Made by a program: the position numbers and the translations under genes. A stretch of DNA of 35,034 bases from positions 1 through 35,034 of the forward strand of contig JAIRYF010000057.1 of NCBI GenBank assembly GCA_031267895.1, given 5' to 3'. Below the pieces are notes generated by a model, which was given only the letters and a program-made list of their open reading frames with translations, ran no database searches and was not told the DNA's origin. The DNA is from Candidatus Methanoplasma glyptotermitis (lineage in GTDB: Archaea > Thermoplasmatota > Thermoplasmata > Methanomassiliicoccales > Methanomethylophilaceae). Positions 2 through 35,034 of the stretch are shown here, piece by piece (the stretch's first letter is position 1; every line of letters starts with the position of its first letter).

Positions 2-2020
2 GCATTCCAAAGTTCAGGCCTGTCAACCGTAACCGTTACCGGCAGCTATGCAGCCGCGAGCGGAACCGTAGGCGCGTATTTCAGTACAGGTAAGACATGG
101 GTACTGCCAGGTGCATCCAGTGCCGCAATGTATCTGGTCCTCCCAGATATCAATTCCTATGATACCGGATACACTCCGTCAGACATGGCCGGAGCCAACG
201 GAAGAGAACTGCATTATAAAGATAAAATATACACTTGCACCGAAATGACATGGACTCAGAACAGCACAGTTCATTCTGTATCCGGAACCGTTAGCTATGG
301 GGATGGTGGTACGGTCGCAGGCGCGAGAGTATCTCTCGGAGCACCCGGATTATACACTGCATTTACAGGCGAAAGCGGAGGATATACTATAAGTGATATT
401 CCCTCAGGTAATACCTATGCCGTAACGGTATCTAAAACAGGATACCACCAGACGGATGAGGTATCCGTTACTATGAGCGGAGATATTTCCGCTAGTGGCA
501 TCAGCCTGGAAATCAACAGGCATACAATAAGGGGATCTACCTATATAGTAGAAGGGGAGGAGTGGGTAACAACGTCGGACGTGAGCGTATCCTTTGTATC
601 GGGTGATACATACGGTCCCGTAACCACCGATTCCGATGGTTACTATGAAATAACCGGAGTTCCCTACCTCACATACGGAAATATTATCGCAACAATTCCA
701 GGATATCATCAGATCGAGATATTTTCGTTAACTGTGGATGAAGATTGCTGGGTATCTGTTGATCTGGAAATCAATACGTATACGGTATCCGGCAAACTCA
801 CGGTAACCGGAGGGGCATCCGAAGAGAACGTAACCGTAACCCTGACATCGTCTTCCGGCCCGGAATACACCGCAGTCACCGATTCCAACGGTGACTACGA
901 AATAACCGAAGTTCCCCATTTCACATCCGGAGACATAACGGCAGAGATCGAAGGATACACCCAGACCGGAAGTCCCGACAGCATAGTTTCGTTAACCGGA
1001 GATCTTGACGAACAGGACATTGTGCTTACGGCTCTGTACACTGTATCCGGTACGCTCACCGTAAACGGATCTGCATCCCCGGAAGACGCATCGGTATCTC
1101 TGATATCGGCTTCCGATCAGACCGAATACCCCGGAACAGTCTCCGGCAGCACCTACACCATACTGAATGTTCTTCACGGAACATCCGGAGACATAACGGC
1201 AGAGATCGAAGGATGCACCCAGACCGGAAGTCCCGACAGCATAGTTTCGTTAACCGGAGATCTTGACGAACAGGACATTGTGCTTACGGCTCTGTACACT
1301 GTAACCCTTACAAAAGAAGGAAGAGGAGTATCCGGTTACAAATACAGCATCAACAGCAGCGATGATACAGATTACGATGGATCCTTCGAAATCGAACACG
1401 GCAGCACTCTTGAAGTAACCGCTCTGTTCGCGGAAGGATACGAATTTAAGGAATGGTCCGGTTCAGACTCGGAAACGAATCCGTTAACCGTATCGGTAAC
1501 CGAAGACACATCCTTAACAGCATCCGGCGAACTGACGAAACACACCGTAACGTTTGATTCCGGTCAGGATTATACTGTATACACAAACGGAGGTCCTCTT
1601 TCTTCTTCTATGGTAACTGTTACTTACGGAAGCAGTCTGTTATTCGGAATACAGGCACCGGAAGGATATTCTGCATCTCCTTCTGTTATCTCCGGAACCG
1701 CAGATATAACTCTCCAGGCAGACGGACGGTATAAGATGTCAAACATACGTTCCGATGTACGTATTAGCATAACCGTAAACACAGTATCCGGAGACGGTTC
1801 TTACGGTAACAGCAACGGTACAGACAACGGCGGTATCGGCACCGGTACAGGTAACGGAACAGACAGCAGCGGTTCCGAAGGAAACGGTTCCGGTACAGAC
1901 TCCGGCAGCAGTACATCCTATTGGGCTCCTGCAGTCATAATAGCAGTGTTCTTATCAGGTATCGCGGCAATCGCGGCTGTTAAGTTCGGACTGTTCGGAA
2001 TAAAACTGTTCGGTAAGTAA
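2..2020 (+). CDS. Surface protein, C-terminal part (LRR remnant, carboxypeptidase-regulatory-like repeats, InlB-type repeats, TM anchor); 5' partial
   Basis: The reading frame is open to the left edge, so the gene starts outside the window; the ATG at 128 is internal. The first residues (AFQSSGLSTVTV) look like the end of a BspA/LRR_5-type leucine-rich repeat. Four beta-sandwich repeats of carboxypeptidase-regulatory-like type follow (about 276-510, 510-770, 775-1030, 1030-1300), each with a TVSG...GxYxIxxxP pattern. Two segments resembling divergent InlB B-repeats come next (about 1300-1540 and 1540-1770; AEGYEFKEWSG is typical). A Gly/Ser/Thr/Asn-rich linker (about 1790-1915) leads to one hydrophobic segment near the C terminus (about 1920-2010), ending in a short basic tail. 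The design is that of an extracellular adhesin-like protein held by a C-terminal membrane anchor. Its ligand is unknown. Confidence 0.85.
   Translation, partial: AFQSSGLSTVTVTGSYAAASGTVGAYFSTGKTWVLPGASSAAMYLVLPDINSYDTGYTPSDMAGANGRELHYKDKIYTCTEMTWTQNSTVHSVSGTVSYGDGGTVAGARVSLGAPGLYTAFTGESGGYTISDIPSGNTYAVTVSKTGYHQTDEVSVTMSGDISASGISLEINRHTIRGSTYIVEGEEWVTTSDVSVSFVSGDTYGPVTTDSDGYYEITGVPYLTYGNIIATIPGYHQIEIFSLTVDEDCWVSVDLEINTYTVSGKLTVTGGASEENVTVTLTSSSGPEYTAVTDSNGDYEITEVPHFTSGDITAEIEGYTQTGSPDSIVSLTGDLDEQDIVLTALYTVSGTLTVNGSASPEDASVSLISASDQTEYPGTVSGSTYTILNVLHGTSGDITAEIEGCTQTGSPDSIVSLTGDLDEQDIVLTALYTVTLTKEGRGVSGYKYSINSSDDTDYDGSFEIEHGSTLEVTALFAEGYEFKEWSGSDSETNPLTVSVTEDTSLTASGELTKHTVTFDSGQDYTVYTNGGPLSSSMVTVTYGSSLLFGIQAPEGYSASPSVISGTADITLQADGRYKMSNIRSDVRISITVNTVSGDGSYGNSNGTDNGGIGTGTGNGTDSSGSEGNGSGTDSGSSTSYWAPAVIIAVFLSGIAAIAAVKFGLFGIKLFGK
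923..1303 (+). repeat. Near-identical 123-bp direct repeat inside the surface protein gene (923-1045 and 1181-1303)
   Basis: The two copies are offset by 258 bp (86 codons, so in frame) and differ by one base that I can see, A at 957 versus G at 1215, which changes Tyr to Cys. The flanking parts of the same protein repeats are much more diverged. This points to recent duplication or gene conversion within the repeat array. Confidence 0.85.
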
Positions 2021-3715: not shown

Positions 3716-4066
3716 TCATTCGAAGATTTTCTCTTCGGATATCTTTCTGAGCACGTCCTCTATCTCGCCCTTTGCCTCTATAGAATCGATGCCGTTGGCA
3801 TCCAGCATGTCTACTGCCCCGCCGCCGATGCGGCTGACGAGGACGGCACGGCAGTCCCGCAGAGCGGTCAGAAGGTCCAGCACCTCCCCGTCCGTCCTGC
3901 TTTCATGGCTCCCGCCTGCGCAGAACGGTACCGCGGACCGTGATTCTACATATCTGAACCCGCTGTCATCAATATCGAATATGTGAAACCGATCCGCATG
4001 TCCGAAATGCTGGTTTATTACTTTCCCGTCGGTACTTGCCACTGCCACTCTTGCAGTCATTGTCAT
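3716..4066 (-). CDS. NifX/NifB-C-terminal-like dinitrogenase cofactor-binding domain protein
   Basis: 116 aa starting MTMTARVAVASTDGKVINQHFGHADRFHIFDI, the signature opening of the NifX / NafY / NifB-C-terminal fold (Pfam Nitro_FeMo-Co). Family members bind or shuttle nitrogenase-type iron-sulfur cofactor precursors. The same fold forms the end of the NifB in this window (VAVATSDGKSIDSGFGNTSRFDVYSV). The start ATG overlaps the TGA of the nifK-like gene as ATGA, so the two are translationally coupled; an in-frame upstream ATG at 4222 would lie deep inside that gene and is not used. As last gene of the H-D-K-X operon its likely job is to store or deliver the NifB-derived cluster to the D subunit. 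Its exact partner cannot be read from sequence. Confidence 0.85.
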   Translation of the reverse strand: MTMTARVAVASTDGKVINQHFGHADRFHIFDIDDSGFRYVESRSAVPFCAGGSHESRTDGEVLDLLTALRDCRAVLVSRIGGGAVDMLDANGIDSIEAKGEIEDVLRKISEEKIFE

Positions 4067-5406
4067 GCGCTTGCACCGATTGTGACGGTAAATATTTTCT
4101 CTATCAGAGACAGTGCTCCTCGGTACCCGACGTACGATCGGGACAGTACGACTTCGTATGATGCGGGAAAACTTACTTCCACGACACCTGCTCCGACTTC
4201 CTTTGCGATGTCCCTGTCCCAAGTCGTCCCGAAGAGTATGGCGGGTTTTCTGTCAGAATTGCGTATTTCTTCTTCGATGACAAATCCGTCTTCTATGAAT
4301 TCCGCCTCTATTGATACCCCGTCAGCGATGCTGCGGAACTGTTCGCGTATGCTTTCTCGATGTTCTTCGGGCGGATTCTCGGTCAGGATGACCTTGACCG
4401 GGATCAGCCCCAGCTGATTGACGGCGAATTTGGTTATGGCAAGGGCATATGCGCTGTCGGTGACGACGGCGAACTTCGACGGTACTCCGAAGAAGTACTC
4501 CGAGAAGAACTCCGAGAATTCCTCCATGTACTTGTAATAATCTCTTTCCTCTGATTCTATGAAAGATTCCACCTTTTTCGAATCGATTTTGGCATATTTT
4601 CCGACATCTCTGAGGAAATTTCCAGTTGCTATTGAGCCGATAGGAATTGTTGGGAAATGAAGGAACGGCTGTCCGTATTTTTCCGAAAGATGTTCTGCGA
4701 CGGAGAGTCCGAGCCATGTGTGGATGACTATGTTGAACTGTGCTTTGGGTATGGTTTTCCACTCCTCCACACCACCGGACCCGTGTCCGAACAGAATATT
4801 CACTTTCAGGCCGATTCCCTCCAGGACCCTTTTGATCTCCGCCAGATCTCCTCTCCAAAATGTGTTCTGGTATGGGAGTTCCGTCCATATATTCACAAGT
4901 CCCTGTTCCTTCTCTCCGCTGAAATCTCCGACATACTGATCGATGACCGCCTTGACGACCACTTCATGCCCGATGAAATTGTTGCCCATGAACCCGCCCG
5001 TCTCCGCATACACCACGGAAACGTTCCTCCGCTGGAACTCCCCCACGACGGATGCCACATCATCACCTACGATATCGGATATGCATCCGGTGGTGACTAC
5101 GAAGAGATCCGCTTTCAGTACTTTTGTGGATGCCTGTATCAGTTCCCGGAGCCTGTCGTTCCCGCCGAACACAACTTCTTTCTCAGTCGTGTTTATACTC
5201 GGATGGCTCGCGCCTCCTCCGTATCCGGACCCCTGGAATCCGTTGTAGAAAGCAAGACTTGCATACTGTTTGTCTGCGCATCCGGGTCCGCAGTCTGCAA
5301 TCGGCATCGTTCCCGGTATGGCAACGGCGGATTGCATAGCACCGACGGCACATCCGTACCTGGCCCTGCTTATGGATTCCGATTTCATGGACGGATGCTG
5401 AGTCAT
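4063..5406 (-). CDS. Nitrogenase component 1 beta-like subunit (NifK-like; nitrogenase-like oxidoreductase)
   Basis: 447 aa of the oxidoreductase/nitrogenase component 1 family. The P-cluster ligand pattern of NifK is kept: Cys19 (YGCAVGAMQSA), Cys43 (DCGPGCADK; Cys39 is an alternative) and Cys108 (TTGCISDIVGDDV). It lacks the long N-terminal extension of MoFe-type NifK and is shorter than the usual roughly 520 aa. The chosen start ATG 5406 overlaps the nifD-like stop (ATGA) and has GGGAGG about ten bases upstream; the longer open frame to 5478 lies inside the D gene. It should form an alpha2-beta2 complex with the D subunit, receiving electrons from the NifH-like protein. Retention of all three cysteines suggests a full P-cluster-like 8Fe cluster rather than the 4Fe cluster of CfbCD or BchNB. 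Confidence 0.85.
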   Translation of the reverse strand: MTQHPSMKSESISRARYGCAVGAMQSAVAIPGTMPIADCGPGCADKQYASLAFYNGFQGSGYGGGASHPSINTTEKEVVFGGNDRLRELIQASTKVLKADLFVVTTGCISDIVGDDVASVVGEFQRRNVSVVYAETGGFMGNNFIGHEVVVKAVIDQYVGDFSGEKEQGLVNIWTELPYQNTFWRGDLAEIKRVLEGIGLKVNILFGHGSGGVEEWKTIPKAQFNIVIHTWLGLSVAEHLSEKYGQPFLHFPTIPIGSIATGNFLRDVGKYAKIDSKKVESFIESEERDYYKYMEEFSEFFSEYFFGVPSKFAVVTDSAYALAITKFAVNQLGLIPVKVILTENPPEEHRESIREQFRSIADGVSIEAEFIEDGFVIEEEIRNSDRKPAILFGTTWDRDIAKEVGAGVVEVSFPASYEVVLSRSYVGYRGALSLIEKIFTVTIGASA

Positions 5407-6926
5407 ATGTCGATTCCCTCCCATATGAGTTCTGGGTGTTTGGCAAGTATCCCGGGGTCGGTCTGAGCCGACCACCAATCCGAGTATTGGTGGGTCACGT
5501 GTTTGGAAAGATCCTCGCAGAATCTTCTGCGTTCGATTATCTCCAGTATCAGATTGCCAAGATTAATCAGTCCGTTGTATCCGATGGCCAGATGTTCATC
5601 GCCGAGCGGTGCGGCGGGTACTCCCAGACGCGCGGCGAGCGGTGCTAAACCGTTGTGTCTTATGAGTATGAAATCCGGATTGTGCTTTCTCAGTGTGGTG
5701 AAGAATTGGAAAGGCTGTCTTATGCTTACCACGAAATCATCAACATTGCCGTAGTTGTCCACAAGGTGCGCGAGAGTGTCCTGGCTCGGATCTCCGCTGT
5801 CGTATATGGGATCATGGTGGAACACGACGGAACCGTTTACTCGGATTCCGAGTTCTCTCAGTACCTCTATGAGGCCGTGTGCATATGCCGAACCGGTGGC
5901 TATAAATCCTTGTTTGCCCCCCAGTTTTTTCTTCAGCTTCTCGACCTCAGGAGCTATTCTCGCGTGCTCCCTGGCAATAAAATCCTCGACCAGATGCTCA
6001 CGGTGCGTAACCCGTGCAAGGTCTCTGAGCCAGGCATCGGTCCCCGCAATCCCGTAAGGCTGCGGAGCCCTTATCTGCGGAACTCCGAAGGCCTGCTCCA
6101 GACCTTCGGAGAGATATGTTCCCAGCGTATTGCAGAATGCAACTGTCGCCGCGGCCTCAGACATACTGGCAAGATCGTCTACGGTGGCCAGGTCAACCAC
6201 ATAGTTTACGCGAAGGTCAAGGTTGGCCAGGAGGGGGCCGAACACATCCGATCCCCAAAGATTGATAACGTTTACGAGATCCTCCTGTTTCTTCGTCGGT
6301 TTCTTCACGATCTGTCTGAGTATTCCGTGCTGCGTCTGATCGAATCCCGTGCTCCAATGCTTTGATCTGAATCCCTCGCAGTGCAGAGGCACCACCGGTA
6401 TCCCGAGTTTTTCGGTGTATTCTTCGGTGACGCTGTCTATGTCGTCCCCTATTATCCCGGTGGCACACGAGGATCCGATGAATATAGCTTTAGGATGATA
6501 GTGATTCCAGACATCTTCTATCGTAAGCCGAAGTTTCTCCGCACCTCCGAAGACCATGTCTCTTTCTGTAAGATTGGTGGATGATATCCTGAGATTCTCC
6601 ACTTTGTGACCTCTTGAGGCGAGGCCTATGCGGTATATTGTGTTGTAGAACGTCTGAGATGCGCTGCACCCTATGGGAGCATGCTGTATCAGGACCGCTT
6701 CCCTGATATTTCCCGCCTGACATTCCACCATCTGTTCGCTGCAGACGGAAGGTTGGGTAAACGGCCCTTTCATCTCGCAGAGATTACATCCCGATCCGCA
6801 TTTCCCCTTTTTGGAATAGCCGGACTTTTCAGAGAGTTCCAGGGCGTTTCCGTCCCAGTACACTACCGTCCCCAGACGTTGCTCGCGGCTCTCTACGGCT
6901 GCAGTGTCCAGATTTATTCTTGCCAT
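5403..6926 (-). CDS. Nitrogenase component 1 alpha-like subunit (NifD-like; possible methylthio-alkane reductase-type)
   Basis: 507 aa. Cys62, Cys87 and Cys154 match in spacing the P-cluster ligands of NifD (62/88/154). Cys265 (AFCNTLGTYLSEGLEQAFGVP) and His445 (GDEHLAIGYNGL) sit where NifD has the cofactor ligands Cys275 and His442, so a NifB-derived cofactor is expected. The substrate-pocket segment EGFRGVSQSLGHH of MoFe nitrogenase is replaced by EGFRSKHWSTGFDQTQH, so this is not an ordinary nitrogenase. An extra CX3CX2C motif lies at Cys43/47/50. The N-terminal style (SVCSEQMVECQAGNIREAVLIQH) resembles group IV nitrogenase-like proteins such as MarD as I remember them; I could not align them. 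The start ATG 6926 has GGTG five bases upstream and follows the nifH-like stop by two bases. There are no nifE/N genes in the window. Confidence 0.85.
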   Translation of the reverse strand: MARINLDTAAVESREQRLGTVVYWDGNALELSEKSGYSKKGKCGSGCNLCEMKGPFTQPSVCSEQMVECQAGNIREAVLIQHAPIGCSASQTFYNTIYRIGLASRGHKVENLRISSTNLTERDMVFGGAEKLRLTIEDVWNHYHPKAIFIGSSCATGIIGDDIDSVTEEYTEKLGIPVVPLHCEGFRSKHWSTGFDQTQHGILRQIVKKPTKKQEDLVNVINLWGSDVFGPLLANLDLRVNYVVDLATVDDLASMSEAAATVAFCNTLGTYLSEGLEQAFGVPQIRAPQPYGIAGTDAWLRDLARVTHREHLVEDFIAREHARIAPEVEKLKKKLGGKQGFIATGSAYAHGLIEVLRELGIRVNGSVVFHHDPIYDSGDPSQDTLAHLVDNYGNVDDFVVSIRQPFQFFTTLRKHNPDFILIRHNGLAPLAARLGVPAAPLGDEHLAIGYNGLINLGNLILEIIERRRFCEDLSKHVTHQYSDWWSAQTDPGILAKHPELIWEGIDI

Positions 6927-6928
6927 CC

Positions 6929-7807
6929 TCACACCTTCACGAGTGTTTCCGCGACACTGCCCGACCTCTCCAATTCCAGGAGATGCTTTCCCCACTGTCC
7001 AGCCCATTCCCTGAGATCTGATATCTCCAGCGGCGTGGGTACTTTTGATTCTGTGTGGGCGGCTATCTTCTTTGCAAGACTCCTGTATATATCGGCCTGT
7101 GCCGAACCCGGCGCAGATTCTATAACAGTCTTTCCCTGAAGTTCGCTCTGCGTGACGGTAACCGATCGGGGGATATACTCAACGACCTGAGTATCCGTCC
7201 TTTTGACGAAATCATCCACTATCTCCTTGGAATACGGCTGGTTTATGGAATTGGCTATCACACCTCCCAGCAGTGCTCCGCCGGAACGGGAATAGCCGCT
7301 TATTCCTTTGAATAGGTTGTTGGATGCATATATCGACATGAAATCGGCGGAGGAAACAGTGAATACGTGTTGCGCTATGCCCTCTCTGATCGGTACCGCG
7401 AATCCTCCGCAGACCACATCTCCGAGAACATCGTACAGGATTACATCCAGGTCCAATTCCTCGAATATATTCTGTTGCTTGAACAGCTGTACGGCCGTTA
7501 TTATCCCGCGTCCGGCGCATCCCACGCCGGGTGACGGCCCTCCTGCCTCAACACAATATATTCCGTTGAACCCTTCATAAACGACCTCGTGAGCATTGAC
7601 TTTGGTCTTTTCCCTCAGCGTGTCCAGCACCGTAGGTATGTATGTTCCTCCGCGGAGTGTGTTCGTCGAGTCGCTCTTCGGATCGCATCCGAACTGCATG
7701 ACGTTGTACCCCGCTTCGCTGAGTGCGGCCGTGAGGTTTGAGGTCGTCGTGGATTTTCCGATGCCCCCCTTTCCGTAGATGGCGATCTGCTTGATTTTCT
7801 TCGCTAT
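6929..7807 (-). CDS. Nitrogenase iron protein-like ATPase (NifH-like), apparent ATA start
   Basis: About 292 aa, a NifH-family homodimeric ATPase that would donate electrons to the D/K complex. Numbered from the proposed start, the P-loop GKGGIGKS is at 12-19. The [4Fe-4S] ligands are Cys97 (GPSPGVGCAGRG) and Cys133 (LGDVVCGGF), matching Cys97/Cys132 of Azotobacter NifH. Arg100, the ADP-ribosylation site in some NifH proteins, is present. The first in-frame ATG (7699) lies after the P-loop and cannot be the start. Upstream to the stop at about 7907 there is no in-frame ATG, GTG or TTG. The best start is ATA at 7807, five bases after the GTG of gggatGTGA, giving residues (M)AKKIKQIAIYGKGGIGKST. 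A one-base error in the A6 run at 7807-7812 would instead put the GTG at 7815 in frame. First gene of the H-D-K-X operon. Confidence 0.85.
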   Translation of the reverse strand: MAKKIKQIAIYGKGGIGKSTTTSNLTAALSEAGYNVMQFGCDPKSDSTNTLRGGTYIPTVLDTLREKTKVNAHEVVYEGFNGIYCVEAGGPSPGVGCAGRGIITAVQLFKQQNIFEELDLDVILYDVLGDVVCGGFAVPIREGIAQHVFTVSSADFMSIYASNNLFKGISGYSRSGGALLGGVIANSINQPYSKEIVDDFVKRTDTQVVEYIPRSVTVTQSELQGKTVIESAPGSAQADIYRSLAKKIAAHTESKVPTPLEISDLREWAGQWGKHLLELERSGSVAETLVKV

Positions 7808-19983: not shown

Positions 19984-21744
19984 TCACCCGACCGTGGCTT
20001 TGATCCTTCTGGTGCCTGCGGCGGAACTTTCTTCCTTTATTATCTTGAAACAGCCTATCTCTCCTGTGCTTTTGACATGCGGTCCCCCGCACAGTTCCAC
20101 CGACACATCGCCTATCGAGTACATCTTCACAATCTCTCCGTACTTGTCCTGGAAAACTCCAACGGCGTTCCTCTTCTTTGCCTCTTCGTAAGGTGTCTCT
20201 TCGCAGACCACCGGGATATCCTGAGATATTATCTCATTGATGTAATCCTCAATGCTCTTCAGTTCCTCGGATGTGAGTTTCCTGTCGAGGTTGAAATCGA
20301 ATCTCAGTCTTTCGGCTGTTATGTTGGAACCTTTCTGCTGTATTCCAGGATCAACGAACTTTTTAAGAGCGGCATTCAGAAGATGTGTTGCGGTGTGCAG
20401 CTTTGTTGTCTGTTCGCCCGCATCTGCCAGACCTCCTTTGAACGTCTGATCGGAACCTGATCTGGATTTCTCCTGATGTTCTCTGAACCTGCTGTCAAAG
20501 TCATCCGTATTCACGGAGTATCCCCTCTCGGCAGCCAGCTCCTGCGTCAGTTCTATTGGAAATCCGAATGTGTCGTACAGTCTGAACACGGCCTCGCCGC
20601 CGAGTTCCCCGGATCCTCCGCTCTCGGAAACCATTTCGTCAAACCTCTTCAGTCCTTTCGCGAGAGTCCTTCGGAATCTTTCTTCTTCGGCTGTTATCTG
20701 TGCGAATATCAAGTCTCTGTTTCTGCCGAGTTCTGGGTATGCATCGGAGTACTCAGAGACGATAACCTCCGAAATCTTATGCATATTCACCCCTTCCATT
20801 CCGAGACTCGACATATACCGACTTGCTCTTCTGATCAGTCTCCTCAGTATGTATCCCTGTCCTGTCTTTGCGGGAACCACGCCGTCCCCCAGCAGGAAGG
20901 TCGAGGCCCTGAGATGGTCGGCAATTATTCTGAACGGCCTTGTGAAGTCTCCGTACTTCTTCCCGGACAGTTCTTCGAGTTTTCCTATAATTCCTGTGAA
21001 AAGAGATGTGTCGTAAACAGTCTTCAGTCCGTTTACGACGCAAAGGACTCTTTCCAGCCCCATTCCCGTATCCACGTTCTTCTGTCTGAGCGGAGTGAAT
21101 CTGCCGTCCGTGTCTTTGCTGTACTGCATGAACACGTTGTTCCATATCTCCGTGTACTTTCCGCATTTGCATGCAGGTCCGCAGTCCGGTCCGCATTTCG
21201 GCCGGCCGTCGTCGAAAAATATTTCTGTGTCCGGTCCGCATGGTCCTGTTTGTCCGGCGGGACCCCACCAATTATGTTCCCTTCCGTAGAAGAATATCTG
21301 ATCGTCCCGTATTCCGCGGCTCTTCCAGAATTCCGCAGTCTCAGTGTCCTTCGGGATGCCTTCCTCCCCTTCGAATGCGGTCACGGCAAGATTGTTTATG
21401 TCTATCTTCAGGACATCCGTCAGGAGGCCGAAACTGTACTCTATCGATTCTTTTTTGAAATAGTCGCCCAAGGACCAGTTGCCGAGCATCTCAAAGAACG
21501 TGAGGTGCGAAGCATCTCCTACCTCTTCGATGTCTCCGGTCCTTATGCATTTCTGAAAATCCACAAGTCTTCTGCCTCCGGGGTGTTTTTCCCCCAGAAT
21601 ATACGGGACGAGGGGGTGCATACCTGCAGTTGTGAACAGCACCGTCGGATCGTTCTCCGGTATCAGCGAGGCTGATCCGATGTGCGTGTGTCCCCTTTCA
21701 ACGAAAAAATTCACGTATGCATCCCTGAGTGCCTGTGCGTCCAT
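19984..21744 (-). CDS. alaS: Alanyl-tRNA synthetase, short form lacking the C-Ala domain
   Basis: 586 aa from ATG 21744; the open frame to 21822 includes the promoter. Class II catalytic core: FTTAGMHPLVPYILGE (motif 1 region), FEMLGNWSLGDYFKKE (motif 2), and a motif 3 region with GxGLERV (TGMGLERVL) and GQGYILRRLIRRA. The editing domain has the zinc motif HTATHLLN (HxxxH) and CGGPHVKSTGEIG (Cx3H). The protein ends right after the SAD domain (AAGTRRIKATVG), without the C-terminal C-Ala domain of the usual roughly 870-aa enzymes. The core looks bacterial-type rather than archaeal-type, which suggests horizontal acquisition or a second AlaRS; this is my reading without alignment. Its substrate tRNA-Ala is at 3275. 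Confidence 0.93.
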   Translation of the reverse strand: MDAQALRDAYVNFFVERGHTHIGSASLIPENDPTVLFTTAGMHPLVPYILGEKHPGGRRLVDFQKCIRTGDIEEVGDASHLTFFEMLGNWSLGDYFKKESIEYSFGLLTDVLKIDINNLAVTAFEGEEGIPKDTETAEFWKSRGIRDDQIFFYGREHNWWGPAGQTGPCGPDTEIFFDDGRPKCGPDCGPACKCGKYTEIWNNVFMQYSKDTDGRFTPLRQKNVDTGMGLERVLCVVNGLKTVYDTSLFTGIIGKLEELSGKKYGDFTRPFRIIADHLRASTFLLGDGVVPAKTGQGYILRRLIRRASRYMSSLGMEGVNMHKISEVIVSEYSDAYPELGRNRDLIFAQITAEEERFRRTLAKGLKRFDEMVSESGGSGELGGEAVFRLYDTFGFPIELTQELAAERGYSVNTDDFDSRFREHQEKSRSGSDQTFKGGLADAGEQTTKLHTATHLLNAALKKFVDPGIQQKGSNITAERLRFDFNLDRKLTSEELKSIEDYINEIISQDIPVVCEETPYEEAKKRNAVGVFQDKYGEIVKMYSIGDVSVELCGGPHVKSTGEIGCFKIIKEESSAAGTRRIKATVG

Positions 21745-21782
21745 TTGAGTTCCGCCCTCTGCCTCTGCGATACTTTCTTTGT

Positions 21783-21790
21783 TTATATAC
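21783..21790 (-). promoter_or_regulatory. Probable TATA box of alaS
   Basis: On the minus strand gTATATAAAc lies about 40 bases before ATG 21744, which predicts a short leader of roughly 15 bases. Confidence 0.6.
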
Positions 21791-21830
21791 GCTGTGAGCC
21801 GGCCGCTTCGGCAAATCCTCACATCTTTAC

Positions 21831-21906: not shown

Positions 21907-22878
21907 TTAGAAATTTTCCTCTCCATCTTTTATCTGAAGAATTTCATAGTCTAGGGGTTTAGTTGCCTTTCTGCTTGGAACTATACCCGGTACAAATTTT
22001 TCAGGTAGGGGCAATGTTCTATGGGATTCCCAAAAATTATTAATTGCTTTAACATTGAACAGTGCCAATTCTGCAGGATGGTATCCATTCTTTTTATGAA
22101 TTTTACTATATACTGCATTCAGTCCAGGAGACATGGGGTTGAATACTTTCCCAAATGTAGCATTCATCTCGGGTGAACTCGTATCATAACTGCATTCTAA
22201 TCCGTTCATCCTGGCATATACATCAGCCTGAATCAATGCCCTAAATATTCCGACACCAAATATGTGAACACGGGTTATTCCTTTTTTATGAATAAGAGGA
22301 AATGCTTTATTGATAATCTCATAAAACTGTTTTTCGTAGTCCAGAGATTTTGACATTATGCAGAATCCTCCAAACCCAATCATGTCGTCTGATGTAGCAA
22401 CTTTTAGAACACTTTTGATACATTTTAGATATTGATCTACATTAGTTCCTTGACAGCTTAAGACCAATTGCCTAGGGTTCAAATCTTCTCTTTTTTCAGA
22501 TAGGAATCTAGCTGCATCGATTGTTTCCTTGACATATTCTTCTGCCAAAACTCCAGAAACACGCTCTTTAATCTGTCCGGATTCTCCCAGTTGTTCATCG
22601 ACAAGTCTGTCATAAGATACAATGCATTCTGCTTTCTTTTTGCCGCCAGTGACTTTATTTTCAAAATTCAGTTGACGAACTAATGCATCATCAAACGATA
22701 GTCTGTCTGATTTACCTACATCTTGAAATGCACCCGAATCGATCATAAATCTGACTGGCAGAGTGGGATCTATTTCAACACTATAATATGGGTTAATGCA
22801 CAGATAGTCAGAATAGTTCTCAGGATCGTATATCGATCCATTAAGCTTGTTATGACATTTAGAAACATAGAATCTCAC
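21907..22878 (-). CDS. TGT-superfamily protein, candidate DNA-guanine transglycosylase (DpdA-like)
   Basis: 323 aa. Residues MIDSGAFQ (45-52) match the DSG(G/A)FQ base-exchange motif of tRNA-guanine transglycosylases. SYDRLVDE (about 88-95), GFGGF and the VHIFGVG strand fit the TIM barrel, and YDTSSPEMN with Asp232 falls where TGT has its nucleophile Asp followed by xxPTR. The zinc-binding CxCxxC...H motif of tRNA enzymes is absent. This combination resembles DpdA, which puts preQ0-type 7-deazaguanine into DNA. The ATG overlaps the AbrB-like TGA (ATGA), so the two are coupled. No deazapurine synthesis genes or other dpd genes are visible, so substrate and DNA target are inferred. Confidence 0.65.
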   Translation of the reverse strand: MRFYVSKCHNKLNGSIYDPENYSDYLCINPYYSVEIDPTLPVRFMIDSGAFQDVGKSDRLSFDDALVRQLNFENKVTGGKKKAECIVSYDRLVDEQLGESGQIKERVSGVLAEEYVKETIDAARFLSEKREDLNPRQLVLSCQGTNVDQYLKCIKSVLKVATSDDMIGFGGFCIMSKSLDYEKQFYEIINKAFPLIHKKGITRVHIFGVGIFRALIQADVYARMNGLECSYDTSSPEMNATFGKVFNPMSPGLNAVYSKIHKKNGYHPAELALFNVKAINNFWESHRTLPLPEKFVPGIVPSRKATKPLDYEILQIKDGEENF

Positions 22879-23115: not shown

Positions 23116-25458
23116 ATGACTGACATACATTTTTATGAACGAATACAATACTCAAGCGTTAGAATGTTCGATTTTGATCAGTTCATAAAAGGGACAAGAG
23201 TCTTGGATAGAGACATATCCTCAAATAGGAATCAATTCGAAGCGGTCAGTGCACCGTATTCTGCATCTTTGAAAATAGTGGCAGGGCCGGGTAGTGGAAA
23301 AACAACTGTTATCGTTCTTCGAATTATGAAAATCATTCTTGTTGATGGCATTGATCCATCGCACATTATGGCTACGACATTTACGAAAAAAGCAATGGAT
23401 GAATTAAAATCTAGAATATTGAGTTGGGGCGAAAAACTACGGCAATTTTTCTTAGAATCAGCTGTTGGTGAAGTAAGGTCGTGGCTTATCAAAATAAATT
23501 TTAATGCCGTAATTACAGGAACATTGGATAGTATTTCTCAGACAACCCTAATGGACAACAGACTACCGGGCGAAGCACCTCCAATAATGATTGAAGAATA
23601 TGTATCGAGCATTCTAATGCTTAAACAAGGGCTGTTTGAGAACCATTTACACAATAATCCGGATTTTGACTCAGAACTAGGTAAAATATTTGGCATCGAA
23701 CCTCGTGGCAGAAATGTTTCTAACAAATGTGAACGTGCATTAGGACTCAATTATCGTCTTAAGGAAAATACTATCCCCTTTGATTATTTGACTGATTATC
23801 CTTTGATTCAAAAATGTTTAAAATCTTATGAAAAATACCTCAATGATCATTTACTATTGGACTTTCCTACATTGGAAAAAAAATATTTAACATACTTGAT
23901 TAAGCCGGAATCATCAAAATATCGCAATAATATCCAATTTTTGCTAGTAGATGAATACCAAGATACAAATCTGTTGCAAGAGAAAATTTATTTTGAATTG
24001 GCAAAAAATATCATCATCAATGGCGGAAGTGTTGTCATTGTAGGCGATGATGATCAATCAATCTATCGATTCAGAGGGTCAAGAGTGCATCTTTTCTCAA
24101 AAATTGAGGAACGCTCTGCGCGTATTGGAGTTACTTTCAAAAAAATATACCTTAACACAAATTATAGGTCCACACAATCGATTGTCAATTTTTGTAACAA
24201 TTACATCGAATTGGATCAAGAATATCAGGAAGTACGCATCGATAAACCAAAGATGATGTGCGGAAGGAGCTGCGACGATTATCCCATATATGGACTGTTC
24301 AGAGACAATGTTCAGGATTTGGCACATGACCTTGCCGACATCATTATCGATGTAGTCTATCGCGGAGGACATATTTTCACAGATGTGGACGGAAAAAAGC
24401 ACACAATACAAATAGATTCTGTAGGCTCAATCGCTGATGTTGTATATCTATCGTCTTCCGTCAGTGAAAAGAGTAGCGACAGAAAAAGGGATCGCCTCCC
24501 ATTAAAATTACGTGGGGAATTGTCAATAAGATTGCCGTCAGTAGAAGTTTTCAATCCACGAGGACAAGATCTGCAAGATATGCCTGAGATCGAAAAACTG
24601 TGTGGCATATTGATGCTTTGTATTGATCCTGATTCTTCTGTTCTAGACGGAATTTTCATGAGAGATTTGGCCAGACAAAGGATTACTGAGTGGATAAATC
24701 GAGCGCGAAGATACATTGACACATGCGAATCTGTCAATGGTGTTAAATTATCTGATTATGTGTCAGCATGGCAAAATGGAAAACCATTTGGAACCGACAA
24801 ATGGGATAAAAATGACGTAACGATCACAGATATTATCTACAATATCATAACTTGGATTCCAAGATTGCAATCTGATGCCGAGAATTTAGTTTATTTGGAG
24901 GCGATTTGCAGAGTTGCAAACAGTTCTTCTCTTGTGAATCCGTTTGGTTCCAAGATTTGGTTCGAGAATCATAAACCAACAGCCAATTCAGTAAAGGCTG
25001 CGTTGAATGATGTTTTTATTCCTTTGGCAAGTGGTGTAATCGATATCAACGAAGATCTTTTATCAACGATACCGCAGGATCGCCTAAATATAATGTCCAT
25101 ACATCAAGCAAAGGGTTTAGAATTTCCATTCACTATTGTGGATGTAGGATCAGATTTTAAAAATAATAACCACGCTCAGAAGTTTTTAAGATTTCCTGAG
25201 AATCCAGATAGAACATCAAATGAAGAGAGGTTCATAAAACAATATTCCGAAGAAATCATTGAGTCACATGATGATCTTGGAAGATCCTTTGATGATCTGG
25301 TCCGAAAATACTACGTGGGGTTCAGTAGAGCCCAGGATGTTTTAATGCTAGTCGGACTGACAAAATCCCGAGATGCATGTATCAGAAATATTGCCACCGG
25401 ATGGTCTAGAGACGGAATTTGGCAATGGGCAGGACTGAGAAATATTTCGCAGCAGTGA
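23116..25458 (+). CDS. UvrD/PcrA-like superfamily 1 DNA helicase
   Basis: 780 aa. Q-motif and Walker A AGPGSGKTT (56-64), motif Ia TTFTKKAMDELKSRI, Walker B VDEYQDTN (about 278-285), motif III VGDDDQSIYRFRGS, motif IV-like LNTNYRSTQSIV, motif V MSIHQAKGLEF and motif VI YVGFSRAQDVLML are all present, so it should be an active 3'-5' helicase. The TATA-like element at 23086-23100 suggests a leaderless transcript starting at ATG 23116. The next gene, a RecB/Cas4-like nuclease, follows after seven bases, so the pair probably works as a helicase-nuclease (AddAB- or RecBCD-like) on DNA ends or foreign DNA. Confidence 0.92.
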   Translation: MTDIHFYERIQYSSVRMFDFDQFIKGTRVLDRDISSNRNQFEAVSAPYSASLKIVAGPGSGKTTVIVLRIMKIILVDGIDPSHIMATTFTKKAMDELKSRILSWGEKLRQFFLESAVGEVRSWLIKINFNAVITGTLDSISQTTLMDNRLPGEAPPIMIEEYVSSILMLKQGLFENHLHNNPDFDSELGKIFGIEPRGRNVSNKCERALGLNYRLKENTIPFDYLTDYPLIQKCLKSYEKYLNDHLLLDFPTLEKKYLTYLIKPESSKYRNNIQFLLVDEYQDTNLLQEKIYFELAKNIIINGGSVVIVGDDDQSIYRFRGSRVHLFSKIEERSARIGVTFKKIYLNTNYRSTQSIVNFCNNYIELDQEYQEVRIDKPKMMCGRSCDDYPIYGLFRDNVQDLAHDLADIIIDVVYRGGHIFTDVDGKKHTIQIDSVGSIADVVYLSSSVSEKSSDRKRDRLPLKLRGELSIRLPSVEVFNPRGQDLQDMPEIEKLCGILMLCIDPDSSVLDGIFMRDLARQRITEWINRARRYIDTCESVNGVKLSDYVSAWQNGKPFGTDKWDKNDVTITDIIYNIITWIPRLQSDAENLVYLEAICRVANSSSLVNPFGSKIWFENHKPTANSVKAALNDVFIPLASGVIDINEDLLSTIPQDRLNIMSIHQAKGLEFPFTIVDVGSDFKNNNHAQKFLRFPENPDRTSNEERFIKQYSEEIIESHDDLGRSFDDLVRKYYVGFSRAQDVLMLVGLTKSRDACIRNIATGWSRDGIWQWAGLRNISQQ

Positions 25459-25465
25459 GGTCATC

Positions 25466-26650
25466 ATGGCACTATCGGTACGTTCAAAACAATACAAGAT
25501 CCCAAGCTACAGTCTTACCGGCGATTTGTTGGCATTTATGCAATGCAAACTCCAATACAGATACAACAACAAGGGTGCGTTACCCCCCTCCACACCTGTC
25601 CAACAATGGTTCGGAGAGTTCATCCATGGTGTGATGGAAGAATCATTCCTCATATGGAAAAAAGAAAAACGAGAATTTCCATGGTCCTTTGGTGAGGTTC
25701 AAGAAATCTCTTTAGAAATTGCGAATAGATTATCATTCAAGGGACTAAAACCTTATTCAAATTTGTTTTGTGATTGCAATCCCGACAGAAAGGGCAGTTG
25801 TCCAGATAACAATCACCCTCATCATCTGTTAGCAAATGATCGTGCGTTCTACGCCATCAACATGTGGGGAAAATATCTCTTCCCCTTAATTGATGAAAAC
25901 GAAGTTAAATTAGAAGGCATGCGCGATATGCCCAATTACCAAAATGGAGTAAGCAGAGCAGAATACTACTCAGTTACAGGAATCGCAGACGTAGTCAGTT
26001 TAGTGAATGTAAATGAAATAACATTGGGAAATCATCTTGTAAAATATTTGTATTCTTACTCAGAAATCAGGGAATTAATTTCTCGTAATGAGGAGTTCGA
26101 AATCATTATCGATTATAAAGGAATGAGACGCCCAGCAAATAATTCTGAGATTTGGAAGCATCACGAGTGGCAATTGCACACATACATGTGGTTACGAGAA
26201 GAACAATTACGTTCCGAAAATGTAAAGTGCCCCATTGTAGCCGGAATTCTTCTGTATCTCAATGAATTATGCCCCTCTGCAGATGATTGTAAAGTTCTTC
26301 TTTCTGAAATAAAAGATAACAACACCGATATTATCCCAAACTCTGACGACATCTCCATTTTGGAAAATGGAGATAAAGAACATAGATATCAGATATCTGA
26401 TCCATTCAAGGAAGCCAGATCTATTCGAATAATACCATATAATAAAGATGGCATGATTGATTCTTTAGAACAGTTCGACAGCGTGGTTCGCAATATTGAA
26501 TCATGTGTTCTTGATGAGATGAAAAACACACGTAACGTTATGAGTCATTGGTGTGGTAACGTTTATGAAAAACGCAGATGCACAGCATGCGATCTGAAAA
26601 CTATTTGTATTGATTTAGGAGATTCCAGGGTGAAACCAAAAGTTCCGTAA
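25466..26650 (+). CDS. PD-(D/E)XK nuclease with Fe-S cluster (Cas4/RecB-like), partner of the helicase
   Basis: 394 aa. An N-terminal Cys27 (LLAFMQCKLQYRY) and a C-terminal cluster Cys363, Cys372, Cys375, Cys381 form the iron-staple pattern of Cas4/AddB-type nucleases. The catalytic region is EIIIDYKGM (about 212-220), with the QLHTYMW motif (QxxxY) after it; a His/Glu-rich segment earlier (FGEFIHGVMEESF) gives the upstream acidic residue. An additional CDCNPDRKGSC segment near 107 is unusual. It lies seven bases after the helicase stop. There are no CRISPR repeats or other cas genes, so Cas4 in the adaptation sense is unlikely; DNA-end processing with the helicase fits better. Confidence 0.85.
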   Translation: MALSVRSKQYKIPSYSLTGDLLAFMQCKLQYRYNNKGALPPSTPVQQWFGEFIHGVMEESFLIWKKEKREFPWSFGEVQEISLEIANRLSFKGLKPYSNLFCDCNPDRKGSCPDNNHPHHLLANDRAFYAINMWGKYLFPLIDENEVKLEGMRDMPNYQNGVSRAEYYSVTGIADVVSLVNVNEITLGNHLVKYLYSYSEIRELISRNEEFEIIIDYKGMRRPANNSEIWKHHEWQLHTYMWLREEQLRSENVKCPIVAGILLYLNELCPSADDCKVLLSEIKDNNTDIIPNSDDISILENGDKEHRYQISDPFKEARSIRIIPYNKDGMIDSLEQFDSVVRNIESCVLDEMKNTRNVMSHWCGNVYEKRRCTACDLKTICIDLGDSRVKPKVP

Positions 26651-28510: not shown

Positions 28511-29035
28511 TCAATCACACTCTGTAAAGAAGTCATCAATTAATTTGACAACCATGTTATTTCTATTTGTATCATCCATTGTATCTTCGACATATAGATA
28601 ATCGAATCTGCGATATCCGTATTTTTCATTATTGCGTTTTATGAATTCTCTCTCGATAAATTCCTTCTTAGCACGGAATATTGGCTCTGATGAATAGATT
28701 CCCCCCTTTGTCTCTATCAGAAGCATCTTGTCAATAATATTGTTCGTCCTGTGTATAATCAGGAAATCGGGTGTATATTTTCCAAGATAAATCCATGATT
28801 TGTCTCTAATCTTGTAGCATCTTATATGAAAATCGGTCAAACCACGATCACCATTGTAGTATACCTCTAGTCCTAAATCCTGTATTTTGGACAAGGTCAG
28901 TAATTTTTTATAGAATTCAATCTCAAATTTGCTGTCCATCTTATATGGGATATAATGGTAGCTACGATCATCCATTGAATGAATGTCTAAGTATGATTTT
29001 CTTTTGAGTTCCTGTACTATTACTTCGTTGTCCAT
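28511..29035 (-). CDS. PD-(D/E)XK nuclease domain of type III Res, split from the helicase by one TAG codon
   Basis: 174 aa if started at ATG 29035. The motif YTPDFLII...KMLLIETKGG gives catalytic Asp90, Glu108 and Lys110, the classical PD...ExK pattern of the C-terminal endonuclease domain of type III Res subunits. The helicase part upstream is in the same frame, separated only by TAG (29041-29039) and one Glu codon. The AGGAG before ATG 29035 touches the start codon with no spacer, so independent initiation should be poor. Either TAG is decoded (pyrrolysine or suppression) to give the usual fused Res, or this is a nonsense mutation with weak restart. Confidence 0.8.
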   Translation of the reverse strand: MDNEVIVQELKRKSYLDIHSMDDRSYHYIPYKMDSKFEIEFYKKLLTLSKIQDLGLEVYYNGDRGLTDFHIRCYKIRDKSWIYLGKYTPDFLIIHRTNNIIDKMLLIETKGGIYSSEPIFRAKKEFIEREFIKRNNEKYGYRRFDYLYVEDTMDDTNRNNMVVKLIDDFFTECD

Positions 29036-29038
29036 CTC

Positions 29039-30010
29039 CTATGCAGCTTTAAGAAGTAATTTTGTATTTTCATCAATCATTATGTTTCCTAAATCGGCAT
29101 TTATTATGCTTTGTACTCGAGTTTCATCCGGACAATATTTGTTTATATCTGAAACATATTTTTCAGATTCAAAATTGCCAACATTCAGTAATTCTGCTTT
29201 TTCGCCAATAAGCTCATGTTTCACTTCGAACCTACGGTAGGGGCAGAATGATTTACGTATCTGTGAGCCGATCTCGAATATATTCAAATTTCTGTTGAAG
29301 TATGTTATTCCGTCTTCGTAAATGGTTATTTTTTCAAATATCTGTAGAAGTGGAATTCTATATACATTTAATTGCTCTTTTTTGATAAATCCAAAGCTTT
29401 CTTTTTCGATGGAATAGAGCCACTGATTAAATATAGCAATATTGCCTCGTTGACAGAGAATTTCTTCATCATCCCTTACGATGCCATCAACTATGTCAAT
29501 GTAAGTTACATGGTATTGCGGTTCGAAGATTTGCAAACATATGTTATTGAGTACCCCCACAATATTTAACAGACTCTCATCAACAATCGTGTTCATTTCC
29601 ACCTCAAGTTGATAATAGTTGAGTGATTCTAATTTCAAATGTTTTCTTCTGTCATATACTGAAATCTTTCCTGGATGTTTTTCCTTTCCAGTTTGGAATT
29701 CAGATAATGTAACACGATGCTCATTCTTTAACTGTTCATCTAGTAATTTAGCATTGTCGGCATTCAAATAAACCCGTGCAGATTCGACTTCATTACGCGT
29801 AACTTGCCTTAAACACCTGCAACATGTCTGAAGAACCATATTTTTTGGACAGTCATTTTCTTGTGAAAGTATAACACCAGTCAAACTTTTGCAGTCCCAC
29901 CCTTCCCTTCCAATTCCTACAAGAAGGATTACACGTATTTTCGATATGGACCTATCCAATATGCCAAACTGATATTCGTTCTCCTTGGGGAGATCATATT
30001 TCCGTTGTTC
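29039..30010 (-). CDS. res: Type III Res, C-terminal helicase part (after the poly-G frameshift)
   Basis: 323 codons in the frame that continues Res after the G12 tract. The first TTG in this frame (29959) is inside the domain and not a credible start. Residues GIGREGWDCKSLTGVIL match motif V of type III Res, and QTCCRCLRQV matches motif VI. The remainder is the linker region before the nuclease domain. It ends at the TAG 29041-29039. It would be translated only when the G tract has 10 or 13 bases (or after ribosomal slippage), so in the present sequence it is silent or decayed. Confidence 0.8.
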   Translation of the reverse strand, partial: EQRKYDLPKENEYQFGILDRSISKIRVILLVGIGREGWDCKSLTGVILSQENDCPKNMVLQTCCRCLRQVTRNEVESARVYLNADNAKLLDEQLKNEHRVTLSEFQTGKEKHPGKISVYDRRKHLKLESLNYYQLEVEMNTIVDESLLNIVGVLNNICLQIFEPQYHVTYIDIVDGIVRDDEEILCQRGNIAIFNQWLYSIEKESFGFIKKEQLNVYRIPLLQIFEKITIYEDGITYFNRNLNIFEIGSQIRKSFCPYRRFEVKHELIGEKAELLNVGNFESEKYVSDINKYCPDETRVQSIINADLGNIMIDENTKLLLKAA

Positions 30011-31401
30011 CCCCCCCCCCCATGGAATTTAAGAACAGTTTCTGTCGGGTTAAATCCGTATTCTTCCGCAATTTGAACGACAAGAGGATGTACTATCTCC
30101 TCCAACTTTTCAACAGTTGTACAATATATTGCTATTTTTGACCAAGTGCCATCCGTGTACTTTTTCTCTTTATATGTCTCAAAGAATGATCTGAGTCCAT
30201 TATCAATTATTTCTGAATATTTCTCACGATTCTCATACTTCACAATAAGTGGCTTCTTAAGGAAATTTCCTATTCCATTAATGAGCGGATAATAATACAC
30301 GACATTTGTTATTTCAGAACTGGAGATTTTACTTTTGTCCGGTAAATTAATCTTCTCTGCTTTTTCCAAATAGGGCGTTCCTGTAAATCCCATTACACAA
30401 TTAATGGTATCGTTTTTAGCCCAATTCGTTACAACCATGCGCAATTTTATTGAGTCACGAGATGCATGGTGAACTTCATCAATCATGATTGCAAGGTTAG
30501 GAATTCTGCCAATTCTGTTCCTTAATTCGTTCGCTAGCCTGTCTTCTTGATCCTCATCCAACTCGATAATATGATTTTGCTTCTCATCCAATTTGGTATG
30601 GTCCAATATAACCTTTTCTGCATTTGTGACTAAGACCAATCCCCTTACATTTCTACCATTCATATTCAATGCAATTTTCTGAACATTGGGATTTTTTGTT
30701 CTCGTTGATTTGCTTTGAGTTTTTGGCATATCTAAAACTTCAAATTTTATTTCATGTCTCAACCTATCTGCTACAATTTTGTCAAATATCCATTCTGGAT
30801 CAAATGATTTTATACTTTTTAAACTAGGGATAACGGATGATTTTGTCCCGGATGGGGCCAAAACAATGAAATTATGTGCAAATCGTTTATTATCGGGCTC
30901 AAATGATGAGAAATAAAGATCAAGATACATCAATGCGGCCATAAGATATGTTTTACCAGCACCCATTGGAAGACTAAAAATATAATCACTATATTTGACA
31001 TTGTAAAATAATTCTTTAAAAATTTCTGAACAATTAAATTTTTCTGGATGATTTTTCAACAATTCAATAGTTTTTTGATTTTTTTCATCGAATTCTTTTG
31101 TTATTATTGTCATATATTCAAGAAAGGAAACCGCATCAACATGTTCTTTGAAATAATCTCTGATTGTCTGCTTTAATTCTAGTTCATCGATATTGATGGT
31201 ATTGAATTTCCCCTCTGAAAACAACTGGTGCAGAGGCTTGTTATCACATTCAATTTTCAAGAACATATAAATTTTTATTGCTTCAATCTGCACATCTCTC
31301 ATTTTTCCAATGTGCTTGATGTTCTCAATTATGTTTGCCACAGTGCAACTAGGTGATTCATACCACTCTTGGCACTTTTTTGCAATCATATTTCTGAACA
31401 T
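29929..31401 (-). CDS. res: Type III Res, N-terminal helicase part, out of frame at a G12 tract
   Basis: 490 aa as read. DEAD-like superfamily 2 helicase of type III restriction enzymes: Walker A LPMGAGKT (144-151), APSGTKSS motif Ia, IDEVHHASRD motif II (about 309) and GFTGTPY motif III. The frame then passes FHGGGG, encoded by the G12 tract, and ends after 30 unrelated residues at TAA 29929. With one more or two fewer G, the frame continues as EQRKYDLPKENEYQFGILDRSISKIRV and joins the part below. Adding the three pieces gives about 970 aa, the normal length of a type III Res. Confidence 0.88.
   Translation of the reverse strand: MFRNMIAKKCQEWYESPSCTVANIIENIKHIGKMRDVQIEAIKIYMFLKIECDNKPLHQLFSEGKFNTINIDELELKQTIRDYFKEHVDAVSFLEYMTIITKEFDEKNQKTIELLKNHPEKFNCSEIFKELFYNVKYSDYIFSLPMGAGKTYLMAALMYLDLYFSSFEPDNKRFAHNFIVLAPSGTKSSVIPSLKSIKSFDPEWIFDKIVADRLRHEIKFEVLDMPKTQSKSTRTKNPNVQKIALNMNGRNVRGLVLVTNAEKVILDHTKLDEKQNHIIELDEDQEDRLANELRNRIGRIPNLAIMIDEVHHASRDSIKLRMVVTNWAKNDTINCVMGFTGTPYLEKAEKINLPDKSKISSSEITNVVYYYPLINGIGNFLKKPLIVKYENREKYSEIIDNGLRSFFETYKEKKYTDGTWSKIAIYCTTVEKLEEIVHPLVVQIAEEYGFNPTETVLKFHGGGGNNGNMISPRRTNISLAYWIGPYRKYV
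30010..30021 (-). repeat. G12 homopolymer tract (C12 on the plus strand) inside res
   Basis: Twelve G on the coding strand, directly after a CAT codon. At 12 the upstream frame is thrown out; 10 or 13 would restore the full Res reading frame. Tracts of this kind change length by slipped-strand mispairing in phase-variable bacterial genes. Confidence 0.9.
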
Positions 31402-34495: not shown

Positions 34496-34866
34496 CGGAG
34501 ACACGGAAAGCGTACGGCATTTGTGCCTTGTAAAAATTTTCAGGCGCATTGAACAGATCATGGGAACACACAGCACACCAATGTACAGCAGTTATGTTCC
34601 TGTGAACAAAAAAACGGATATTTTTGCCTAAGATGCGTAAACAGAAGAGATGGGATCCCAATTCAGCGGCACAGCATGTGACACGAGAGGATAGTGTATG
34701 AGATGCCGGGGACAACGGAAGCGGCCGGGTGTGCGGTGTAATTACGAACATTTCGCGGGTATCTGTCAGACATTGTTTGTAAAAGTGTACGTTAGCTATA
34801 TATTTGGGTGTGCAGATACATTCCGTACACCTGTTATGAAACCGAAACGACAAGGAGCAAAACATC
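34496..34866. other. Intergenic region with promoter of the gene at 34867
   Basis: No gene is recognisable. The TATA-like GCTATATATTTGG at about 34795-34807 is a plausible promoter for the gene at 34867, with a leader of about 35 bases. AAGGAG about nine bases before ATG 34867 serves as ribosome-binding site. The T/A-rich stretch at about 34605-34630 may terminate the transporter transcript. Confidence 0.45.
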
Positions 34867-35034
34867 ATGAATATCAAACCTCTGAGAGGAACCGTTTCCT
34901 CCGTCAAAACATCCGCCCGCCCATACAGGGGGGGGGGGGAAATTATAATTTCCCCAGCCGTCTGAATGTAACTGTATTATTTGCTGCCGCTCTGTTTCTG
35001 GCAGCAGCATTCTTTGTAACGTATTCCGAACAAA
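34867..35034 (+). CDS. Start of a membrane/secreted protein gene with a G12 tract; OFF frame as sequenced; 3' partial
   Basis: ATG 34867 follows AAGGAG. As sequenced, the frame (MNIKPLRGTVSSVKTSARPY, then RGGG) passes the G12 tract and stops at TGA 34966 after 33 codons. With 10 or 13 G the frame continues as GGNYNFPSRLNVTVLFAAALFLAAAFFVTYSEQ to the edge of the window, that is, a basic N-terminal region and a strong hydrophobic signal/anchor segment. The open continuation with a membrane segment argues that the gene is real and switched by tract length. It probably encodes a surface protein, like the one at the left end; the body lies outside the window. Confidence 0.65.
34928..34939 (+). repeat. 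G12 homopolymer tract near the 5' end of a putative surface protein gene
   Basis: Twelve consecutive G after TACA. Same length and same phase consequence as the tract in res: 12 is OFF, 10 or 13 would be ON. It lies 21 codons after the start, a typical place for phase-variable surface genes. Confidence 0.9.

Follow-up and report, generated by a model that had tools for sequence, protein, structure and literature searches.

A G12 tract in a type III-like restriction gene and candidate genome-wide poly-G phase variation in an archaeon

In bacteria, chiefly in host-associated species, phase variation by slippage is textbook knowledge. The phasomes of Campylobacter jejuni and Helicobacter pylori comprise many long coding G tracts in surface and restriction-modification genes, the frames of which are switched by slippage, and in phase-variable HsdS subunits of the NgoAV type a poly-G tract lies between the two recognition domains. 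Phase-variable type III systems combine a beta-class methyltransferase (Mod), a helicase-nuclease (Res) and a frame-shifting simple repeat. Usually it is mod that is switched, with loss of restriction (PMC3874151). In the accessible portion of a homopolymer survey of 99 prokaryotes, including 18 archaea, tracts at the 5' end were proposed to inactivate genes, with the stress on poly-A/T of up to 7 bases and with G/C tracts lacking a 5' bias; no archaeal poly-G phasome of the present kind was found in that portion (PMC2831843). A 2025 review of phase variation points to archaeal phylogenies as a direction in which surveys of such loci could be extended in future (PMC11868660). A survey of adhesins in the Methanomassiliicoccales, the order to which the present host belongs, counted LRR and Listeria-Bacteroides repeat proteins, with 0-9 LRR gene clusters per genome, and does not mention homopolymers, frameshifts or phase variation (PMC7883539).

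The window analysed here is the whole 35,034-nucleotide stretch, correctly attributed to an archaeon in the initial annotation (the family is Methanomethylophilaceae). Its res-mod locus shares with phase-variable type III systems the beta-class Mod, the helicase-nuclease Res and the frame-shifting simple repeat, and differs from them in that the repeat lies in res rather than in mod, in the res-mod gene order and in its UvrD, PD-(D/E)XK and TGT-like neighbours. The long G tracts of the genome are reminiscent of the Campylobacter and Helicobacter phasomes, but they occur in an archaeon, and half of those read belong to one paralogous family with a common leader. They are about four times as numerous as in C. 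jejuni NCTC11168 by the count in the 2025 review, and not all of them are in genes (PMC11868660). Bacteria provide precedents for the kind of mechanism; what appears to be new is its occurrence in an archaeon, its scale and the surface family. The impression that no archaeal example has been described agrees with the literature searched, in which no archaeal poly-G contingency locus was found. We consider it highly probable that this genome is subject to genome-wide poly-G phase variation and that the G12 tract in res is a contingency switch.

The res-mod locus and its G12 tract

The C12 run on the forward strand, that is, G12 on the coding strand of the type III-like res, was located exactly where it had been reported, and it does break the gene: with 12 G the frame is wrong past the tract and ends at 490 aa (Table 1). 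Among lengths of 9-15 G, only 10 or 13 yield an open frame, of 787 aa and reaching to 29042, and motifs V (GREGWD, 29894-29911) and VI (QTCCRCLRQ, 29804-29830) lie in this frame, as had been claimed. Upstream of the tract, the helicase motifs SLPMGAGKT (30949-30975), DEVH (30463-30483) and GFTGTP (30373-30390) are present. By its ResIII Pfam match and its motifs, Res is an SF2 helicase with a C-terminal PD-(D/E)XK nuclease, split by the tract and by an in-frame TAG. The protein is divergent, with no PDB relative found by sequence, and a search of genome contigs for named relatives of res returned none. The tract is longer than expected by chance and its length determines whether the product is full-length or truncated, as in contingency loci; that this OFF (out-of-frame) allele is otherwise intact and conserved is judged from one distant ortholog.

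This ortholog, in a single-contig genome of another genus (G028), is the only relative of res among 102 genomes of the family. It lacks the tract, is uninterrupted over 932-936 aa and has a contiguous nuclease part; its intact state counts in favour of a contingency switch. Its identity to the present Res is 55% before the tract and 41% over 310 aa after it, and the nuclease part matches the C-terminal end of G028 Res (932 aa) at 50% identity. The restriction of res to these two genomes and the second interruption by TAG would be expected if res, and the OFF surface genes described below, were simply pseudogenes whose decay had begun with a homopolymer indel. The argument from TAG is weakened by the fact that the genome encodes PylS and that TAG terminates only 10 of 344 long ORFs (about 3%) in the stretches read; for these reasons the TAG of this restriction enzyme probably encodes pyrrolysine instead of ending translation, and if so the tract is the only clear lesion of res. 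Decay is further contradicted by the absence of any other stop or frameshift over about 960 codons, with all the listed helicase and nuclease motifs retained. Together with the selection on OFF paralogs reported below, these observations make plain decay very improbable.

Mod is intact, as originally stated, and carries the DPPF and FFGGSG motifs. It belongs to the type III kind of beta-class N6-adenine methyltransferases, with PADLOC type II models scoring about as high, and its gene adjoins res as in type III restriction-modification systems, in inverted order with res first. The TGA of res directly abuts the ATG of mod, and in G028 the two genes overlap by ATGA. Because res is upstream of mod and the genes abut, an OFF res may also lower Mod. 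As to phase-variable restriction as initially proposed, the contingency tract itself is strongly supported by its context (94 tracts in the genome, their bimodal lengths, the shared tract site of 43 paralogs, purifying selection past that site, and no match to MutS or NucS), while the accompanying claim that methylation stays on when restriction is switched is not established. With its tract in res and with mod unbroken, this locus does not switch the methyltransferase itself, unlike a phasevarion; tracts do occur elsewhere in the Dam methylase at L037 and in HsdS at L039. The in-frame TAG, the res-then-mod order, a second G12 tract in the window and the genome-wide set of tracts are additions to the initial annotation.

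In G028, mod, the UvrD-family helicase, the PD-(D/E)XK nuclease and the TGT/DpdA-like protein are also kept beside res, which makes this a conserved defence-like module. For the TGT/DpdA-like protein (L257:5156-6094 and the window copy), the best fold matches of a low-confidence model are TGT and the DNA preQ0 insertase DpdA, and its presence could hint at a 7-deazaguanine link of the module. Elsewhere in the window, the alanyl-tRNA synthetase (19984-21822, -) is related at 73% to proteins of two Methanomethylophilaceae MAGs and then mostly to bacterial ones (Clostridia, about 57-60%), a distribution that suggests acquisition by horizontal transfer; its named neighbours are Candidatus Methanomethylophilaceae MAGs, one of them from roe deer omasum. 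At 4063-7699 (-), a nitrogenase-like gene cluster, followed by ABC transporter and corrinoid/methyltransferase genes, was recognized by eye.

Table 1. Features of the window discussed in the text
Feature	Coordinates	Strand	Evidence or remark
C-terminal part of another surface protein, upstream part off the contig	128..2020	+	C-terminus SYWAPAVIIAVF..GLFGIKLFGK resembles family member L085 (by eye)
TGT/DpdA-like protein, module neighbour also in G028	21907..22878	-	56% identical
UvrD-family helicase, neighbour of res-mod also in G028	23116..25458	+	conserved
PD-(D/E)XK (Cas4-like) nuclease, neighbour of res-mod also in G028	25466..26650	+	conserved
mod, beta-class adenine methyltransferase, intact, 619 aa	26651..28510	-	PADLOC MTase_III 8e-50; N6_N4_Mtase; EcoP15I Mod 1e-17
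Nuclease portion of Res with a PD...ETK motif, frame unchanged past TAG	28511..29038	-	homology to G028 Res C-terminus; motif
In-frame TAG between helicase and nuclease parts of Res	29039..29041	-	probably pyrrolysine; alternatively a stop, with the nuclease as an ORF of its own
C-terminal helicase part of Res, carrying motifs V and VI, 322 aa in the shifted frame	29042..30007	-	homology to G028 Res; motifs
G12 tract inside res, frame broken	30010..30021	-	10 or 13 G keeps the frame
N-terminal 460 aa of Res, with motifs I-III of an SF2 helicase	30022..31401	-	Pfam ResIII 3e-08; motifs
TATA-box-like element of the second tract gene	34796..34805	+	by eye in family rows
Shine-Dalgarno AAGGAG before leader ATG, second tract gene	34852..34857	+	conserved in family
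Leader MNIKPLRGTVSSVKTSARPY of BspA/LRR surface-family member	34867..34926	+	family comparison
Second G12 tract of the window, OFF, needs 10 or 13	34928..34939	+	frame test
Start of signal/TM segment NYNFPSRLNVTVLFAAALFLAAAFFVTYSEQ, other frame, cut by contig end	34941..35034	+	family comparison

Long G tracts across the genome

The genome (1.72 Mb, 97.9% complete) of this methane-producing gut-type archaeon contains 94 G tracts of at least 10 nucleotides. The stretches around them that were read amount to 563 kb, about a third of the genome, and contain 87 of the 94 tracts, compared with 0.7 G/C runs of at least 10 expected under a first-order Markov model. The spectrum of run lengths is bimodal, nearly empty at 7-9 and peaking at 10-13: the numbers of G/C runs of 4 to 9 nucleotides are 1703, 363, 51, 6, 2 and 3, respectively, and those of 10 to 13 nucleotides are 17, 33, 32 and 5. 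Only one A/T run of at least 10 occurs in the same 563 kb. Tract counts in the same genus are 63 in G002 and 37 in G011, and 6 and 9 in the near-complete G001 and G016; in the tract-rich G002 and G011, tracts also precede large ORFs, and a few of those in G002, at contig ends, are artefacts.

The genes that carry tracts belong to classes that are classically phase-variable, namely LRR surface proteins, a D12/Dam methylase, HsdS and periplasmic binding proteins. At L039, within a full type I operon, G10 lies between the two Methylase_S domains of HsdS, as in the NgoAV type, from which it differs in being archaeal and a candidate by sequence. A G13 tract at L047 divides a gene into halves of 355 and 230 aa in different frames; this gene is located directly upstream of BrxP-BrxC (BREX-like). 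Further tracts were found in two periplasmic binding proteins (L045 and L071) and in large surface ORFs (L035, L077 and L090). The tract at L037 is in a Dam-type methylase that adjoins a restriction enzyme (L037:4502-5263 and 5445-6614). The methylase is out of frame while the restriction-enzyme ORF is intact, a potentially self-harming combination that counts against phase variation unless the two genes are coupled; failing such coupling, the tract length must have been miscalled.

The remaining 35 of the 87 tracts are outside scored genes, mostly intergenic and without a clear role. Two such G11 tracts (L073:4500 and L078:1662) have common flanks, ACGGCAGAATACGACAGA before and CTCGGTCCGTGGATCAG after, and perhaps derive from a degraded repeated element. 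Tract flank sequences were not found in viral contigs.

A tract-bearing family of surface proteins

Almost half of the tracts read, 43 of 87, occupy one fixed site in a BspA/LRR surface-protein family of about 50 members, one of which closes the window. The G tract is preceded by a TATA-like element, AATAAGGAG and an ATG that opens a leader of 16-23 aa (MNxKSxKGIIPS...). It is followed by NYNFPSRLNITVLFAAALFLAAAFFVTYSEPNES and then by LRR and repeat domains of the BspA type, which extend over as much as 900 aa; wherever the end was read, a C-terminal membrane anchor is present. Because the promoter-like TATA and AATAAGGAG precede the leader ATG, the start codon is taken as fixed. This genome yields 50 matches to the family and G003 two distant ones, while the 100 further genomes of the Methanomethylophilaceae yield no match. 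A few surface copies without a long tract also exist. In two of them (L048:6411 and L087:4184) the stop of the leader ORF and the main start codon share an ATGA, and an SD-like GGGAGG occupies the position of the tract, which suggests a route by which an ordinary start may give way to the tract or the reverse.

In all 43 paralogs the tract is 10-13 nucleotides long, with intact ORFs on both sides. Among the 41 members with a clear leader, 37 are OFF and 4 are ON; those that need 10 or 13 G have 10 (1 copy), 11 (17), 12 (17) or 13 (1). Over the 33 codons after the tract, dN/dS is 0.13 among 35 paralogs, nearly all of them out of frame, and since synonymous changes thus far exceed amino-acid changes, the out-of-frame parts are being maintained. 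The OFF alleles of the family are therefore otherwise intact and under purifying selection, which is at odds with their being pseudogenes.

An error of homopolymer assembly or sequencing would mean that the real tract lengths differ from those called, being shorter, longer or in frame, and that res and the surface genes are always intact. The assembly is indeed a draft of 72 contigs, many of which end near family tracts, a G25 tract at a contig end in G002 looks like an artefact, and the share of ON genes (4/41 in the family and 1/9 among the other coding tracts scored) is below the one third expected by chance, as a systematic length error could produce. Yet in the 43 paralogs the codon position of the tract is the same and the flanks match, so the tracts themselves cannot be artefacts; no length outside 10-13 occurs, and not all copies need the same shift, 11 and 12 G being equally frequent, so that no single miscall repairs all copies. 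Such an error is very improbable, if slightly less so than decay. The length variation observed is between paralogs, one genome per species having been compared.

Poly-G is slippery, and most copies are out of frame but conserved, as they would be if the ribosome or RNA polymerase slipped on the tract and produced a fixed full-length share from each copy, with no genetic switching. Programmed frameshift sites keep a fixed offset, whereas in this family each of the two shifts is needed by 17 copies and some copies are in frame; programmed frameshifting was rejected because both directions are equally common. Inverted repeats are visible in many leaders, and a conserved RNA hairpin was considered and dropped when the RNAalifold consensus contained no pairs, which also leaves recoding without a conserved stimulatory structure. 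Recoding appears to be the least probable of the alternatives to phase variation.

Switching and its implications

Under phase variation, replication slippage would alter the number of G, with 10 or 13 giving full Res and other lengths a truncated one. The same device would act in the surface family, at a fixed point before the signal sequence, and in the other restriction-modification and defence genes with tracts. At any time most tract genes would be OFF and few ON, which would diversify surface and defences between cells. No match to MutS (over the cut-off) or NucS was obtained in 102 genomes of the family, with positive controls in named genomes; if these families have been lost, slippage on long G runs would go uncorrected. 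Slippage in living cells, its rate, its reversibility and its effect on restriction and on the surface are what we infer from the tracts and frames observed.

The ON lengths, 10 or 13, account for 2 of 43 tracts in the surface family versus 16 of 35 outside scored genes (P = 2e-5), a difference that fits a mostly-OFF state, the comparison being limited by the cut-off at 10. The balance tips slightly in favour of a mostly-off archaeal surface repertoire, in which about 50 LRR genes with their own promoters have usual tract lengths (11-12) that are out of frame and each cell would display a few random members, with several defence systems using the same device; this would resemble variant antigens, in a lineage that has no known mismatch repair. 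If phase variation is confirmed, it becomes testable whether such genomes are permitted by the apparent lack of MutS and NucS in this family. A non-pathogenic archaeon would then diversify its surface and defences at random, which would suggest that the driver is phages, protists or gut competition rather than immunity in pathogenesis, and many apparently broken genes in these archaeal assemblies would be switched, not dead.
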